This document shows, piece by piece, positions 1-10,633 of a stretch of DNA of 33,452 bases (its first letter is position 1; the number at the start of each line of letters is the position of its first letter). Both the position numbers and the translations under genes were made by a program. Source of the stretch: Candidatus Methanosuratincola sp. (lineage in GTDB: Archaea; Thermoproteota; Methanomethylicia; Methanomethylicales; Methanomethylicaceae). The notes under the pieces are model-generated. The model worked only from the letters and a program-made list of their open reading frames with translations, searched no databases and was not told the DNA's origin. The stretch spans positions 1 through 33,452 of the forward strand of contig JBBFLR010000011.1 of assembly GCA_037478935.1 (NCBI GenBank). Reading direction: 5' to 3'.

Positions 1-695
1 GCATCACCTTCCCGTACACGTTACAACCAGGGGAAACCCTGAAGGGGACCTATACCGCCGCGCTGCCCGACGCCAGCCCCAGAACAAATTACGTAACGAT
101 ACAGGTCGAGTATATGGAGCAAAGCTTCGAATACACTGCAGAAGCGGACGTCATATTCGGCGGTCCAACTACCATCGTCAATGACGAGATAAACGTCGAT
201 GACACCAACGGCTATTCGTGGGTATTTAACTCGAGCGGGTCTGCCACTTACGATAAGACATTCTCCGTAGCAGGCACATATGAAAACACGGCGACAATCA
301 GGGAGACCGGACAGAGCGACAGCGCCTCGGTTACAGTTTATGTCTACGAACTTGAAGTCGGAAAGGACGCAAAAACCTCGTACACCCGGACATACCACTG
401 GACTATAGACAAAGGAGGCAACGAGACCTCTCTGACCCTGCGAGTCGGAGAAACATCCACGGTCGATTATGAAGTGACCGTAGACGCCACATACACCGAC
501 AGCGACTGGGCTGTCTCCGGCAACATAACCGTGTATAACCCTGCGCCCATCGCGGCGAACATAACCTCCATCACCGACATCGTCTCGCCAGACATCGTCG
601 CCAGCGTCGACTTCGGCGGCATCACCTTCCCGTACACGTTACAACCAGGGGAAACCCTGAAGGGGACCTATACCGCCGCGCTGCCCGACGCCAGC
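1..695 (+). repeat. Exact 77-base direct repeat (1-77 and 619-695)
   Basis: Bases 1-77 are identical to 619-695, an in-frame spacing of 618 bases within the surface-protein gene; the copies diverge at base 78 versus 696. The repeat encodes the motif around ITFPYTLQPGETLKG. Since the window begins exactly at the repeat, its left extent is unknown. Confidence 0.95.
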
Positions 696-1790
696 GCCCG
701 CATTAACACGGCAACCGTGACTCTGCAGAATTATGCCCGCTATGCGGAATCTGCTGAACCTCTTGGGACAACGGACTTTACGGCTACGGCTGGTGTCGAT
801 TTCAGCTCTGCAGAAGTCACCGAGATCGACGAGTGCATAGACGTGACCGACGACATTTACGGGAGCCTTGGCACCGTCTGCTACTGCGGTGCGCCGGAGA
901 CCTTCACGTATTCTCTCACTGTAGGGCCGTACGCCTCTCCCGGTAACTACGAGTTCGTCAACACCGCCTCTTTCGCTACCAATGACCGTAATGAGAAGGG
1001 AAGTGATTCTTGGACCGTTGAAGTGACAGTCACGGCTTTAAGAATATGCGGTTACAAGTACTACGATGCCAACGTGAACGGCGTTTGGGACGAGGGCGAG
1101 CCGGCAATCGAAGGCTTCAGGATCGAGCTAAGCGACGCTTACGGCAACTTGCTGGACACCACCCACACAGACGACTCTGGCTATTACTGCTTTGAGTTAT
1201 CCAATGCAGGCACTTACGTCGTCAGCGAGGTGATGCCTTCCGGCTGGTGGGTGAACACCACCGCAGCCGTACGCGAAGTCATAGTCTCGGGCGACGAAAC
1301 CAGTTGTATAAGAGTCGACTTCGGGAACGTCTGCCTCGAGGAGGGATACGGCGGAAGGACAATCGGTTTCTGGTCTAACAAGAACGGACAGGCACTCATC
1401 ACATCCGATGACATAGATGAACTCAACGGACTAAACCTCTACAAGCCTTCCGGATGGGCTTACCCGCCTTTCACTGACAAGTCCCAAATCAGGACGTATC
1501 TGCTCAGCGCCAACGCAAAGGAGATGAAGTGGATGCTCTCTGCCCAGCTGATAGGGACAGTGCTGAACGCACGCCACGGTCTAGACGGATCGACTGTCGT
1601 GTACGTGGGCCCCTCTGCCTACGTGCCATCGGGTTTCATAACTATACATGCGATTGTTGAGAACGCAAACGCCGCGCTTCTCGGGAGCAATAAGAGTGAG
1701 CAGGGCTACTGGAAGTCGCTCCTTGACTATGTGAACAACAACCAGCTTCCATTCGTCTGCAGAGAGCCGTGCGAAGTAGTATACCCGTAG
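3..1790 (+). CDS. Secreted repeat protein with SdrD-B-like domain, 5' end missing
   Basis: The frame is open from the first bases of the window, so the Met codon at 114 is internal and the true start lies upstream; 595 residues are visible. Residues about 38-300 are beta-rich, Thr/Ser/Asp-rich modules of the kind found in bacterial and archaeal surface proteins (motifs TRTYHWTIDK, DSDWAVSGNITVYNPAP). One module recurs with a period of 618 bases (206 residues): its tail at the window edge matches the tail near base 619-695. Residues about 347-443 form an SdrD-B-like domain with a calcium-loop pattern DANVNGVWDEGE. A C-terminal region with TIGFWSNKNG follows. No membrane anchor or sorting signal is seen at the C-terminus (ending CEVVYP). 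A signal peptide cannot be judged because the N-terminus is absent. An extracellular, adhesin- or surface-layer-associated role is inferred from the domains only. A T-rich run at 1809-1821 may end transcription. Confidence 0.85.
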   Translation: MTFPYTLQPGETLKGTYTAALPDASPRTNYVTIQVEYMEQSFEYTAEADVIFGGPTTIVNDEINVDDTNGYSWVFNSSGSATYDKTFSVAGTYENTATIRETGQSDSASVTVYVYELEVGKDAKTSYTRTYHWTIDKGGNETSLTLRVGETSTVDYEVTVDATYTDSDWAVSGNITVYNPAPIAANITSITDIVSPDIVASVDFGGITFPYTLQPGETLKGTYTAALPDASARINTATVTLQNYARYAESAEPLGTTDFTATAGVDFSSAEVTEIDECIDVTDDIYGSLGTVCYCGAPETFTYSLTVGPYASPGNYEFVNTASFATNDRNEKGSDSWTVEVTVTALRICGYKYYDANVNGVWDEGEPAIEGFRIELSDAYGNLLDTTHTDDSGYYCFELSNAGTYVVSEVMPSGWWVNTTAAVREVIVSGDETSCIRVDFGNVCLEEGYGGRTIGFWSNKNGQALITSDDIDELNGLNLYKPSGWAYPPFTDKSQIRTYLLSANAKEMKWMLSAQLIGTVLNARHGLDGSTVVYVGPSAYVPSGFITIHAIVENANAALLGSNKSEQGYWKSLLDYVNNNQLPFVCREPCEVVYP

Positions 1791-6111: not shown

Positions 6112-6423
6112 TCAGAGCCTATGCAGCTCGATCTTCCTGCCCTCGAAGAAGGCTGAGATGACCTTCTCCTTCCCACTCTCGACCAGCCGCCATATGGTGT
6201 TCCTGGACACCCCCATGATCATCCCCGCCTCGTCGTAGGAGCGCTTCTCCAGTTCCACCAGGCGCATCGCCTCGAGCTCCGCCAGGTCCAGCTCTATCGG
6301 AGGGGCACTCCCTTCGGGGACCGGCACCAAAGCCTCTGCTGCTGGCATCTTAGCGATGTGGACGTTCTTGGGCCTCCTGCCCACGCAACCCCTCCTGCAC
6401 CTCTCGCAAAAGCCTCTGGGCAT
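6112..6423 (-). CDS. DUF134/UPF0251 helix-turn-helix protein
   Basis: This 103-residue protein matches the DUF134 (UPF0251) family of small putative DNA-binding proteins. It has an N-terminal cysteine cluster (MPRGFCERCRRGC: C6, C9, C13), the conserved LDLAELEAMRLVELEKRSYDEAG and a sigma-70-region-4-like helix-turn-helix (MGVSRNTIWRLVESGKEKV). The family is often found near metal or redox proteins and its targets are unknown. The ATG at 6423 is preferred over the upstream GTG at 6441, because the TATA box (6447-6452) is centred 27 bases before 6423, giving a leaderless message. It faces uppP tail to tail. Confidence 0.85.
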   Translation of the reverse strand: MPRGFCERCRRGCVGRRPKNVHIAKMPAAEALVPVPEGSAPPIELDLAELEAMRLVELEKRSYDEAGMIMGVSRNTIWRLVESGKEKVISAFFEGRKIELHRL

Positions 6424-6462: not shown

Positions 6463-6490
6463 AAAAAATAAAATAAAATAAAATAAAATT
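6463..6490 (-). terminator. AT-rich pentamer repeat acting as a T-rich terminator
   Basis: The plus strand holds about five copies of a five-base A4T unit. On the minus strand this reads as successive T4 runs ending in T6, directly behind the stop of the 134-residue membrane protein gene. Multiple U-runs terminate archaeal transcription efficiently. The same stretch lies upstream of the DUF134 TATA box. Confidence 0.55.
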
Positions 6491-6893
6491 AGGGGTATGA
6501 GATCCTGTACTTCACGGCCTTCCCGCCGTCGGTGACGAGGTACAGGAAGTAATCCGCCCCCTCCGGGTCCAGGCCAAAACCTATCGGGACGTACGACTGG
6601 GAATTCGCCGGTATATTCCTCGCCGGCGAGAAAGTCGTCGATGCCACTGTAATCCCGGACTGGATCTTGACCAGGCTGGCGGACCTTATCCCTACATCGG
6701 AACCCAGCGACGAGGTCACATTCACGCCCACGAGGGTATGCGTCCTCCTGTTCAACTCGACGCCCGTCACGCTGAGCCCAGTCTCCTCGGGGAGCGCGGA
6801 CTGCTGCCCCCTGAAGTAAACTATCGCTACCGCCGATATGACGAGCCCTGCTATCACCGCCGCGACTATTGCCACCGCGCGCTTTGATGCCAT
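6489..6893 (-). CDS. Single-pass membrane protein with beta-rich extracellular domain, unknown
   Basis: I do not recognise this 134-residue protein. Residues 6-28 form a hydrophobic membrane segment (AIVAAVIAGLVISAVAIVYF) after a short basic start, so the remaining 105 residues should face outward. The exodomain is beta-rich with no cysteine (VTGVELNRRTHTLVGVNVT, SYVPIGFGLDPEG). It resembles the compact Ig-like exodomains of archaeal surface proteins only in general terms. The ATG at 6893 has a strong GGTGGTGA site upstream. It follows the polytopic gene at 6905-7696 by 11 bases, so the two are co-transcribed, divergently from the ABC exporter genes. The longer frame reaching 7076 is rejected because it overlaps the polytopic gene. 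Confidence 0.75.
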   Translation of the reverse strand: MASKRAVAIVAAVIAGLVISAVAIVYFRGQQSALPEETGLSVTGVELNRRTHTLVGVNVTSSLGSDVGIRSASLVKIQSGITVASTTFSPARNIPANSQSYVPIGFGLDPEGADYFLYLVTDGGKAVKYRISYP

Positions 6894-6904
6894 CCCATCA
6901 CCAC

Positions 6905-7696
6905 CTAGTGTAACAGCGGCCCTCCGCTCAGCACCTGGATTATCGCCGGGATTAGCGCGATCGTCCCGATCACGGCGAACGCAAGCGCAAGAGTGACGAG
7001 CCTCCTCATTGCGTCGTTCCCGACCGTCTCCATCTCGCTTATCCTGACAGTGTAGTGCCTGACAACAAATCCCCACAGCACTAAAGCTATCGAGAGCCCG
7101 TAGCTGACTATCACCACTAGGAACATCGGGGCGTCATGGAAGACGAAGCAGTAGGGGCAGGGGACCGGCGATGCCTCGGTGAAGACCGTCCTGCAGCACG
7201 GGACCGTCACGGGGCTCACAGTGAAGTAGAATGCGAGGTCGAGTAAGGTGTCCAGAAGCAGGAGGGGGACTAGCAGTATGAATATCTTAGAGAGGGACGA
7301 CAGCAGCGGGCTGCCCTTCACCCTCCGGTTGAGGAGATCAAGCACAAGCCAGATCCCATAAGCAAAGATCACCACCAGCTTTACCCCGGTGTCTATCCAG
7401 GAGTAGGGGCTCCCGGCCTGGCTCACCCCGAACTGGCACATCGCTCCTGGGATAAGAGGGATGAGGCTCTCGTTGGTAGCCCAGAAGAGTCCACTTGCGG
7501 CGATCCTAGATACCAGTATCACCCAGACCACTGTCGACAGTAGGTAGTAGTTCTTCTCGAGGAGGTACTTCTCCTCGAGCCCGGCCCTTGCTATCCTCCG
7601 GTTGATAGCGTAGGCCTTGCTTGATGCGTATACTACAAGCACCAAACCGAAGATTCCCAGCACTGTCATGACCGTGGTCAGAGGGGTCCATATCAT
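6905..7696 (-). CDS. Polytopic membrane protein with outward-facing Cys clusters, unknown
   Basis: This 263-residue protein has about six membrane helices (roughly 5-25, 51-72, 104-122, 137-157, 181-201, 221-247). Basic loops (INRRIAR, NRRVKG, RHYTVR) place residues 26-50, 123-136 and 202-220 inside. All five cysteines then lie on the outer side: C87 (GAMCQFG) and C157, C158, C170, C173 (VPCCRTVF and CPYC). Such an arrangement suggests metal binding or thiol chemistry outside the cell, but no known family is assigned. The ATG at 7696 has an AGGAGG ribosome-binding site; the longer frame from 7789 lacks one. Its promoter faces that of the exporter operon at 7836. Confidence 0.75.
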   Translation of the reverse strand: MIWTPLTTVMTVLGIFGLVLVVYASSKAYAINRRIARAGLEEKYLLEKNYYLLSTVVWVILVSRIAASGLFWATNESLIPLIPGAMCQFGVSQAGSPYSWIDTGVKLVVIFAYGIWLVLDLLNRRVKGSPLLSSLSKIFILLVPLLLLDTLLDLAFYFTVSPVTVPCCRTVFTEASPVPCPYCFVFHDAPMFLVVIVSYGLSIALVLWGFVVRHYTVRISEMETVGNDAMRRLVTLALAFAVIGTIALIPAIIQVLSGGPLLH

Positions 7697-7732
7697 GATC
7701 TTTTTTCCTCCTGCTAGGAGAGATACATGCAA

Positions 7733-7741
7733 CGAATAAAT
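7733..7741 (-). promoter_or_regulatory. TATA box for the minus-strand membrane gene pair
   Basis: On the minus strand the element reads TTTATTCG and lies about 40 bases before the ATG at 7696, leaving a leader of roughly 15 bases that contains AGGAGG. Confidence 0.45.
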
Positions 7742-7797
7742 GCTTAGTGTTATGGTCTTTGGAATTGAACTCTGAAACAAAGGAAGCATGTGGAAGG

Positions 7798-7807
7798 TTT
7801 ATTTATT
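7798..7807 (+). promoter_or_regulatory. TATA box of the ABC exporter operon
   Basis: TTTATTTATT is centred about 33 bases before the ATG at 7836, predicting a leader of about six bases. It and the minus-strand box at 7733 lie in the same 139-base divergent spacer. Confidence 0.55.
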
Positions 7808-7835
7808 GTAATCGCCAATCTATAGCTGAAATAAA

Positions 7836-8318
7836 ATGAGACAGATCTCACAACCCCTGAGGGCGATGTTCTTAGTGCTCACGGTCTCCACGGTAGGGGT
7901 GGTGGCGCTCCTAGCCGTCTTCCTGAGCGCGCATCCCTACTTCAGCCCTTTCCAGCCTGTTGTCCTGCCGAGGGGTTGGATCGATGCGAACACGTACGTC
8001 TCGGACAACTTCACCATCGCCTCGGGCGAGACTGTAAAGGACATATTCGGCTACGCTGGCGCTGGGGGGCAGTCGATAATGATCCTCGGCGTACAGCCCC
8101 TCTCGATCAGGACCCCCGGGAACATCGACGTGACCTTCAACGGGATCCCGTTCGGTGAAACCTACGTTAACCAAACGCTAGTCACGAACACCTCGATAGC
8201 CTCCTGCTGCTTCGTCACACTCATCCAGGCTGGTGTAGACAACGTGGTCGAGATCAGGTCAAAGGGGTTTGAGGGGGACTTCAGGTACCTGATAGTGATA
8301 CCTACGGGGGGAAGATGA
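7836..8318 (+). CDS. Single-pass extracytoplasmic protein of the ABC cluster, unknown
   Basis: The 160-residue protein has an N-terminal basic stretch and one membrane helix (about residues 10-31, LVLTVSTVGVVALLAVFL), then an outward domain. The exodomain is beta-rich (NFTIASGETVKDIFGYAG, VDNVVEIRSKGF), suggestive of a jelly-roll or cupredoxin-like sandwich. It contains one adjacent cysteine pair (C124-C125, SIASCCFV) and a few N-x-S/T glycosylation sites. I do not recognise the family. It is the first gene of a plus-strand operon; its stop overlaps the next start as ATGA at 8315-8318. The ATG at 7836 follows the TATA box at 7798. Confidence 0.75.
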   Translation: MRQISQPLRAMFLVLTVSTVGVVALLAVFLSAHPYFSPFQPVVLPRGWIDANTYVSDNFTIASGETVKDIFGYAGAGGQSIMILGVQPLSIRTPGNIDVTFNGIPFGETYVNQTLVTNTSIASCCFVTLIQAGVDNVVEIRSKGFEGDFRYLIVIPTGGR

Positions 8319-8641
8319 TGAGAAGGATGATTGTGCTGCCCTTGTTTGCGATCATTTTCACCGCCGCCCTCATCTCTGTCGGACTTTACAGCGAAGTCCA
8401 GTGGTCAGGGCGCGAGCACGACAGAGCCATCCGTGAGGTTCTGGGGTTCCCCAGCATCGCTATCGGGACGAACTACGAAGGGACGAGGAACCCACTGCTG
8501 GAAGTCTTTGTCAGGTCCCTCTATGACGTCCCGGGAGGCTACGACTACATAGTCTCGTCCAGCTTCATTGACACGCCGATGCGTCTGAGGGAGTACAGGG
8601 AGCATATACCCGGGTTCAATTTCACCGCGGTAAAGGGATGA
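8315..8641 (+). CDS. Small single-pass extracytoplasmic protein, unknown
   Basis: This 108-residue protein starts with two Met codons and a basic pair, then one membrane helix (about residues 6-26, VLPLFAIIFTAALISVGLY). About 80 residues follow outside (REVLGFPSIAIGTNYEGTRNP, YDYIVSSSFIDTPM). There is no cysteine. It is not recognised. Its start overlaps the previous stop by four bases and its stop overlaps the permease start by four bases (ATGA at 8638-8641). This implies translational coupling and a fixed stoichiometry with the exporter. Confidence 0.72.
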   Translation: MMRRMIVLPLFAIIFTAALISVGLYSEVQWSGREHDRAIREVLGFPSIAIGTNYEGTRNPLLEVFVRSLYDVPGGYDYIVSSSFIDTPMRLREYREHIPGFNFTAVKG

Positions 8642-9837
8642 TCAGCATGATAAAGAAGCACAAGAACCTGTTGAACTACTCTTTTGACTGCATCAAGAGG
8701 TACAGGATGAGGACTGCCGTGATCCTGATTACATTCCTGGTGGCGACCACCATGATCTCTGCCGTCCTGTTCACGAAGGACGGACTCGAGAGGGAGGCAG
8801 AGCTCAGCGTGGAGGCCGCGCCCGATCTCACCTTGCAGTACCTAAAGGGGGGGCGGATCGAGCTCATGCCCTACTCCTATGCGGACGTGGTGTCCGGGAT
8901 CCCGGGAGTCGAGAAGGTACTCAAGCGGACCTGGGGCTACGCCGGCATCGGGCAGTACACCTTCGTCGTCGTGGGACTGGACCCAGAGGGGTTGGACTAC
9001 TCGAGGGGAGTCATCACCAGTCTTGAGGAGGGGAGGTTCCTGACCCCTGAGGACGAAGGCACCGGGAACATCGTGATCGGCAAGCTGCTGGCTTACATGC
9101 TCAATGTCCGGGTGGGGGACGACATAATCCTCCTCAGCGAGTCGGTCGAGGTGAACAAGTTCCACGTCGTCGGGGTCTTCTCAGACGCCTCCTCGATCTA
9201 CACCGCAGACATGATCATTATGTCGCTCAGCGACGCTGACAGTTTCTTCAGCATGCCAGAGGGGTACTGCACAGACCTGTGCGTATACGTCAGCCCCGCC
9301 GAGGACCCTGTTTCGGTCGCATCCAAGATGAATTCCATCCCGAACCTCCGGGTGCTCGACCAGGACCTCCTCCTCAGGGGTTACAAGGCGGCCTACGGCG
9401 CCCGGGGAGGCATCTTCACCACCCTCTGGACGATCCTGCTCGTCGCAATCGCGCTGATTGCCTTCAGCCAGGCTATAGTGGTCGGGCACGAGTCTCAGTT
9501 CGAGGTCGGGCTCCTGAAGACCTTCGGCTTCTCGACTCTGGACATAATCGAGGTTAGGCTAGTGGAGAGCCTCGTCCTCGGGTTCTTCGCGACATCGCTG
9601 GGGATGCTCCTAGGGTTCTCGTACGCCGCCTTCTTCAACGCCCCCGGGCTGGTGGACATACTCTTAGGGTGGGCGTACCTCCCTAGGGAGTTCCGCCTCC
9701 CCGTGTACGCGAGCCTCCAGTCGATCTCCTCGATCTATGCCGTGACGGTCATACCACTCCTGATAACGACCGTGGTCCCGGCCTGGCTCAACGCGATCAC
9801 CGACCCAGAGCTTGCGATGAGGAGGGCTGCCGCATGA
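8638..9837 (+). CDS. FtsX/MacB-like ABC transporter permease
   Basis: The 399-residue permease has the MacB/FtsX layout. A first helix (about residues 26-46) is followed by a large outward domain (about 47-260, with the PEDEGTGNIVIGKLLAYMLNV and GDDIILL segments typical of the MacB periplasmic core). Three C-terminal helices follow (about 262-283, 310-335, 364-387) around the coupling segment GLLKTFGFSTLDIIEVRLVES. The outward domain carries a CX3C pair (C211, C215; YCTDLCV). MacB-type systems work by mechanotransmission, driving extrusion of substrates or lipoproteins. The ATPase start overlaps its stop by four bases. The substrate is unknown. Confidence 0.88.
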   Translation: MISMIKKHKNLLNYSFDCIKRYRMRTAVILITFLVATTMISAVLFTKDGLEREAELSVEAAPDLTLQYLKGGRIELMPYSYADVVSGIPGVEKVLKRTWGYAGIGQYTFVVVGLDPEGLDYSRGVITSLEEGRFLTPEDEGTGNIVIGKLLAYMLNVRVGDDIILLSESVEVNKFHVVGVFSDASSIYTADMIIMSLSDADSFFSMPEGYCTDLCVYVSPAEDPVSVASKMNSIPNLRVLDQDLLLRGYKAAYGARGGIFTTLWTILLVAIALIAFSQAIVVGHESQFEVGLLKTFGFSTLDIIEVRLVESLVLGFFATSLGMLLGFSYAAFFNAPGLVDILLGWAYLPREFRLPVYASLQSISSIYAVTVIPLLITTVVPAWLNAITDPELAMRRAAA

Positions 9838-10496
9838 TCGAAGTAAAGAACCTGACAAAGATCTACAACAGGGGCAAGTTCAACGAGACCGCAGCTGTCG
9901 TGGATGTGAGCCTGAAGGTCAAGGACAAGTCGATAGTCGCCTTAACCGGGCCGAGTGGCTGCGGCAAGACGACCATACTCAGCATGATCGGGCTCATACT
10001 AACTCCGACCTCAGGTGAGATCCTCTACGACGGAGAGAACGTCCTCCTGGCATCTGACTTCTGGAGGACAATTTACAGGAGGCAGAACTTCGGTTTCATA
10101 TTCCAGCACATAAACCTGCTGCCGCAGTACACGACGCTCGAGAACATACTCCTCCCGCTCTACTCCTCGGACATCGAACCCTGGGATTACGAGGGGAAGG
10201 CTAGGGAGTGGCTCGCGAAACTCGGCATTGCGGACCGGGCCGAGCACCTCGTAGAGCAGCTCTCCGGAGGGGAGCAGCAGAGGGCGGCCTTCGTCCGCGC
10301 GCTGATCAAGGAGCCGAAGTACATCTTTGCGGACGAGCCGACTGTCTTCGTGGACGAAGAGACCTCACGGATAATCTACAACGTCTTCTCCTCGCTTAGG
10401 GACAGCGGCAAGACCGTTCTGCTCTCTACGCACGACCCTGAGCTCATGAAGATAGCGGACGACACATACCGGTTCTGCAAGGGCAGGCTGGTGTGA
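9834..10496 (+). CDS. ABC transporter ATP-binding protein (MacB/LolD-like)
   Basis: The 220-residue cytosolic ATPase pairs with the permease just upstream. Visible motifs are Walker A GPSGCGKTT (residues 39-47), the Q-loop in IFQHINLLPQYTT, signature LSGGEQQR, Walker B YIFADEPT and the His switch STHD. The D-loop reads VDEETS rather than the usual LD-type sequence, and the segment after Walker B is short on the common LDP pattern; both are mild oddities. The start ATG overlaps the permease stop (ATGA at 9834-9837). Length and motif order match LolD/MacB-type exporters. Confidence 0.93.
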   Translation: MIEVKNLTKIYNRGKFNETAAVVDVSLKVKDKSIVALTGPSGCGKTTILSMIGLILTPTSGEILYDGENVLLASDFWRTIYRRQNFGFIFQHINLLPQYTTLENILLPLYSSDIEPWDYEGKAREWLAKLGIADRAEHLVEQLSGGEQQRAAFVRALIKEPKYIFADEPTVFVDEETSRIIYNVFSSLRDSGKTVLLSTHDPELMKIADDTYRFCKGRLV

Positions 10497-10556: not shown

Positions 10557-10633
10557 TGGCGGGCCTGAAGGGATTTGAACCCTTGGCCAATGGGTTAAGA
10601 GCCCATCGCTCTACCGTACTGAGCTACAGGCCC
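10557..10633 (-). tRNA. tRNA-Lys (anticodon CTT)
   Basis: The minus strand folds fully: acceptor GGGCCTG/CAGGCCC, D-stem GCTC/GAGC, anticodon stem ATGGG/CCCAT around CTCTTAA, T-stem AAGGG/CCCTT with TTCAAAT. Anticodon CTT reads the Lys codon AAG. The discriminator is G and CCA is encoded. No intron is present. A T5 run lies about 15 bases past the 3' end on the minus strand (10536-10542) as a terminator. Confidence 0.97.

Follow-up and report, generated by a model that had tools for sequence, protein, structure and literature searches.

The 33,452-nucleotide stretch of DNA analyzed here (the window) comes from Candidatus Methanosuratincola, which belongs to a methyl-reducing methanogen group of the Thermoproteota and has a genome of 1.52 Mb. 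It carries a block of six genes, named A and B (minus strand) and C, D, E and F (plus strand), arranged around a single 139-base divergent promoter region (Table 1). All six open reading frames were verified as described in an initial annotation made from the sequence alone, which had also reported that the genes at 7836-10496 are coupled by ATGA overlaps; these are present in the window between C and D (8315-8318), D and E (8638), and E and F (9834), and are only partly retained among relatives. E and F encode the permease and ATPase of a Type VII ATP-binding cassette (ABC) system. A seventh gene, X, was overlooked in that annotation and lies elsewhere in the same genome. We present evidence that the seven genes form one conserved unit and consider, tentatively, that their products handle a soft metal on the outer side of the membrane.

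Of 61 relatives, the same 17 carry both A and C, and these 17 all belong to one family; an orthologous E adjoins the two genes in every case except genome G002, where the contig ends. In five genomes of the family A, C and the E orthologue are all missing, and two of these five are 97-98% complete; because the three genes are missing jointly from the same genomes, the block appears to have been gained or lost as a unit. Its order and orientation are constant in every genus that has it, and its outer neighbors vary. When 398 genomes of the phylum were searched with a profile of X, the positives were exactly the 17 genomes that carry A and C and, beyond these, the distant genome G379, where A and X co-occur and which was the sole other positive for either gene. 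A was also found in G439, a genome of the same family as G379, where X, A, C, D, E and F form one co-directional run. Identities of the G439 proteins to those of Methanosuratincola are 46% for A, 24% for C (E = 6e-5), 39% for D, 44% for E, 55% for F and 34% for X. B behaves as an accessory gene, absent in G008 and not seen in G439. Judged by its synteny in 17 genomes and its recurrence in a second family of the phylum, the block is conserved far beyond chance. The gene set was found neither in family libraries nor in the literature, of which subscription papers lay mostly outside the scope of the search.

Table 1. Features of the block, its promoter region and its surroundings (window positions unless another locus is named)
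Feature	Position	Strand	Description
B	6489..6893	-	134 aa, single-pass, outside domain, no Cys
A	6905..7696	-	263 aa, six transmembrane helices; MC at 86-87, CC at 167-168, CPYC at 180-183
Divergent promoter region	7697..7835		139 bases, separating the starts of A (7696, minus) and C (7836, plus)
Shared element GGAATTGAACTCTGAAA	7761..7777	+	middle of divergent region; family form GGAATTGAAYTC, core GAATTSAATTC
TATA-box-like TTTATTTAT	7798..7806	+	conserved; ~30 bases upstream of C start, position judged by eye
C	7836..8318	+	160 aa, single-pass, outside beta-sandwich-like domain, CC 124-125 in NTSIASCCFVTL
D	8315..8641	+	108 aa, single-pass, outside domain, no Cys; PSIAIGTNYEGTRNP...YDVPGG highly conserved
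E	8638..9837	+	399-aa MacB/FtsX (Type VII ABC) permease, four transmembrane helices
F	9834..10496	+	220-aa ABC ATPase, LolD/FtsE/MacB type
Detached X	G000:C9:31646-32296		in the window's genome; locus L115 (G000:C9:24000-40000), 7650-8309
DUF134 gene	6112-6417	-	predicted DNA-binding type
tRNA-Lys	10557-10633	-	just 3' of F
SdrD_B-like domain protein	114-1790	+	near left edge of window; probably a surface protein

The identity of the engine is clear from E, which scores 47.9 bits against MacB_PCD (cut-off 27) and 28.4 bits against FtsX (cut-off 25.5), has four transmembrane helices (TMs), and finds its closest solved structures in the PDB in LolC/LolF (E 3e-14). Neither protein reaches the NCBIfam equivalog cut-off of the Lol system (77 bits vs 362 for E against LolC/E, 174 bits vs 308 for F against LolD). 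No MacA adaptor was recognized in the block: searches of Pfam and NCBIfam returned nothing for A, C or D even at E = 1, and for B only chance-level matches. The assignment of E and F as a MacB/FtsX permease and its ATPase was thus upheld, as was the view that the system is an undescribed one, a single conserved unit whose partner proteins have no Pfam or NCBIfam family. The label "exporter" is not supported, since the typical task of Type VII ABC proteins is mechanical work outside the membrane and not the passage of substrates through it, and the function of such systems is set by their partner proteins (PMC12646458). A second MacB-like permease in the same genome (G000:C5:87058-87705) is distant, at ~23% identity to E. 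In G003 the E gene (L071:5168-6404) lies in two reading frames, through a frameshift or an assembly error. A role in anti-phage defense was dropped; PADLOC matched only E, weakly, through the permease part of its CARF-LolE_TM model.

The block could be a Type VII machine of the ordinary kind that extracts lipids, lipoproteins or amphiphiles. Its cysteines would then do no more than stabilize the surface proteins, by way of disulfides or structural zinc, a role to be expected in a thermophile. E resembles LolC/LolF, relatives of this engine type extract lipids or lipoproteins (PMC12646458), Methanosuratincola petrocarbonis is thermophilic with an optimum of 55 C (PMC12244365), and CxxC pairs without other evidence are often structural. 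We nevertheless regard this explanation as improbable, given that no lipoprotein carrier or adaptor was recognized in the block, that neither the single unpaired M-C of A nor the CC pairs look, in our judgment, like typical structural sites, that X resembles metal carriers, and that the G439 run adjoins multicopper oxidases.

Attention therefore falls on the partner proteins. Hydropathy analysis gives A six TMs, with Cys 87, 167, 168, 180 and 183 all within two loops. These loops carry 0 and 1 lysine or arginine residues (opposite loops 6, 4 and 4), so that by the positive-inside rule the five cysteines are predicted to lie outside, as had been proposed. All five are invariant in 18 of 18 sequences, comprising 16 family members and two distant proteins of another family, an invariance that reaches down to 41-46% identity. 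A sequence search of the PDB with A returned nothing significant, and an AlphaFold model built from 7 sequences had a predicted local distance difference test score (pLDDT) of 47. B, C and D are predicted to be single-pass proteins with the C-terminal domain outside, in agreement with their first description once the start of B is corrected to 6893, its likely start in place of that of a 195-aa reading frame. Within the family of Methanosuratincola, C keeps its CC in 16 of 16 members; structure prediction for C (pLDDT 66) gave only generic jelly-roll matches. In G021 the C gene (L087:6978-7456) is broken into two frames near its 5' end, by a frameshift or an assembly error.

The initial annotation had placed paired outside cysteines in three components, and this holds for A and, within the family, for C. 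It fails for the permease, because the CX3C of E (C211 and C215), which falls within its large outside domain, is confined to the window and missing from almost every relative, orthologues keeping one of the two cysteines or neither; we therefore rejected it as a functional site, and X takes the permease's place. Since the genes form one conserved unit, with A, C and E in the same 17 genomes and missing from the same five, and the cysteines of A and C are strictly conserved in the family, the proposal of a linked system mostly survived at the points where relatives could have refuted it. The metal or disulfide chemistry also suggested there is what we infer these cysteines may serve.

Disulfide chemistry would take the form of a surface thiol-disulfide relay, in which a DsbB/VKOR-like A passes electrons between CC and CPYC, with X and C as its substrates or redox partners and the ABC engine as the drive or gate of the cycle. 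The paired cysteines in the two outer loops of A and the vicinal CC of C, all invariant in the family, speak for such a relay; CPYC is a glutaredoxin-like motif. Against it stand the profile searches, in which neither DsbB, VKOR nor any other Pfam or NCBIfam family matched A at E 1, together with the single cysteine of the first A loop, the loss of the CC of C in distant copies, and the resemblance of X to metal-protein folds and not to thioredoxin folds. We consider the relay as improbable as the ordinary extractor.

The first real support for the metal idea comes from X, because its cysteine motifs are NosL/MerB-like and of treble-clef type. Between an N-terminal and a C-terminal TM, the protein has an outside domain that carries CxxCGM...CCxGC and one more invariant cysteine; both CxxC pairs and the additional cysteine are invariant across two families, as is the whole of CxxCGM. 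In hhalign comparisons X aligned with the profile of the copper chaperone NosL collinearly over the domain with a probability of 89-91%, the E-values being those of single comparisons. Weak matches to the mercury lyase MerB (PF03243) were obtained for 11 of 15 members (11.9-19.3 bits, best E 7e-4), while the archaeal TRASH domain (PF08394) was matched by one of the 15 at E 0.17, which does not amount to family membership. Sequence searches with X found nothing significant in the PDB and nothing among plasmids. The NosL-like domain is duplicated in tandem in the X of G439 (L141:10966-12081) and in that of G379 (L114:332-1849). The common fold of NosL and MerB goes back to duplicated TRASH-like treble clefs (PMC4999995), and the CxM motif of NosL is its likely Cu(I) site (PMC6530538). 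Because it keeps both CxxC pairs and resembles NosL and MerB, X looks like a member of the lineage leading from TRASH to the NosL/MerB fold, with its metal site apparently intact.

The resemblance to MerB also raises the prospect of organometal or mercury handling, with X as a surface MerB-like protein that cleaves alkyl-metal compounds or binds them, and with the product moved by A, C and the ABC engine, as suggested for the Sec-assisted organometallic (SAO) system, where the MerB-like SaoL is found with an ABC transporter and small Cys-rich proteins (PMC13188914). MerB is the commonest weak Pfam match of X, and X weakly matches SaoL (E 0.07). All the MerB matches are under the curated cut-off, the similarity to NosL is at least equally good, and the SAO ABC transporter is of the substrate-binding-protein type and not the MacB type. 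MerB normally works in the cytosol together with MerA, whereas X is predicted to lie outside. Organometal handling is the least probable of the explanations we consider.

In the four other genera X is located between A and C, on the same strand as A. In the window's genus it is detached and flanked by genes for a symporter, an AAA ATPase, a DUF2117 protein, a CBS protein and others, the same genes that flank the whole block in G008. Given these shared neighbors, the simplest history would be that A-B and C-F moved, leaving X behind at the original position together with one copy of the promoter element. The tRNA-Lys gene next to F represents a common kind of integration site and could be related to the relocation of the block.

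This element stood out as a conserved core midway through the divergent region in a promoter alignment of six Methanosuratincola genomes, and its family form GGAATTGAAYTC is close to the palindrome GAATTSAATTC. Exact copies number 17 in 397 kb where a first-order model expects 0.2, the 397 kb being stretches of related genomes chosen around these genes, so that the copies are not independent. All 17 are at the block's divergent promoters or directly upstream of detached X, and the strict pattern leaves out variant forms carried by some relatives. Because both have the same promoter element, which is presumably a regulator site, X is tied to the block independently of gene order. The DUF134 gene adjoins B in Methanosuratincola, is found near the block in some other genera, and is a possible regulator of it.

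Taken together, A, C and X have conserved cysteines that topology prediction places on the outer membrane face, and we favor, with slightly less than even confidence, the explanation that A-F and X form a seven-gene envelope machine, built on a Type VII ABC engine, for the extracytoplasmic handling of a soft metal, probably Cu(I). ATP hydrolysis by F would move the outside domain of E by mechanotransmission, and this motion would act on the membrane partners C and D and power the movement of a soft metal held by thiols, with Cu(I) the likeliest, between the MC/CC/CPYC loops of A and the NosL-like X. The metal might then be passed to a surface client or kept from causing harm. A soft metal, with copper as the first candidate, is suggested by the proteins that X resembles, by the way the thiols are arranged and by the neighbors in G439, where TatC is encoded just upstream of the run and two multicopper oxidases just downstream (L141:455-6878), one weakly matching a Tat (twin-arginine translocation) signal and the other showing, on inspection by eye, an RR motif. 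These oxidases would be the likely clients in G439, and in the methanogens the role may instead be protection.

Several observations weigh against this soft-metal explanation. X lies below the Pfam NosL cut-off (PF05573), with members that have no match at E 1, and below the MerB cut-off of 27 bits, and its CxxC pairs could bind structural zinc instead; no NosL-family protein above the Pfam cut-off was found in the family genomes of the methanogens. Distant C-like proteins lack the CC. No Cu-oxidase_3 and no Cupredoxin_1 protein was found in any genome of the window's family, so that no copper client is recognized in the methanogens. Cu-oxidase_2 is missing from G379, which carries A and X, and A is missing from most of the G439 relatives that have an oxidase. 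Copper in particular is called into question by G011, where genes for a CbiM-like cobalt/nickel energy-coupling factor transporter directly follow F on the same strand (L078:2498-5137, by eye). Homologues of the ATPase of this transporter are also encoded near the block in G015, G019 and G021. A multicopper oxidase as the general client was rejected, given the lack of Cu-oxidase_3 in the family and of Cu-oxidase_2 in G379.

A bolder form of the soft-metal explanation, which we hold to be doubtful though less so than the alternatives above, is that the block represents an undescribed class of Type VII ABC machine driving metal transfer between membrane-anchored surface thiol proteins, that X is a surviving intermediate between TRASH and NosL/MerB with a full four-cysteine site, and that a strictly anaerobic methanogen with no known cuproenzyme has a dedicated soft-metal pathway. 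If so, metal or thiol handling would join cell division, lipoprotein sorting, efflux and lipid extraction among the known tasks of Type VII ABC systems, surface soft-metal biochemistry would extend to the Thermoproteota methanogens, and X may illuminate the origin of NosL and MerB from TRASH-like treble clefs. Whatever the substrate, five unannotated protein families without a named family are co-inherited with one engine. Since one such methanogen, M. petrocarbonis LWZ-6, has been isolated (PMC12244365), the soft-metal explanation is testable.

Among known systems, the Type VII machines MacAB-TolC, LolCDE, FtsEX-EnvC and YbbAP-TesA share with E and F the MacB_PCD and FtsX domains, the four TMs and the separate ATPase. 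The block differs from them in its partners: MacA, TolC, LolA, EnvC and TesA were not recognized in it, and it has instead two single-pass proteins, a six-TM protein with five cysteines and a NosL/MerB-like protein, none with a named family. In SAO, too, a MerB-like protein, SaoL, goes together with an ABC transporter and with small Cys-Cys proteins (PMC13188914), but the system uses another ABC type, includes selenoproteins, and has no recognized counterpart of A, C, D or E. The NosL-NosDFY system, which assembles the copper site of nitrous oxide reductase, likewise encodes a NosL-like, membrane-anchored outside protein with CxxCxM together with an ABC transporter, and the G439 run similarly stands beside exported copper enzymes. 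NosFY, however, is of another ABC type than the block's MacB/FtsX permease, and X has two TMs and a second CxxC. With the TRASH/treble-clef and NosL/MerB folds X shares the CxxC...CxxC spacing; it differs in that it apparently keeps both CxxC pairs and the second lobe together, in a membrane protein facing outside.

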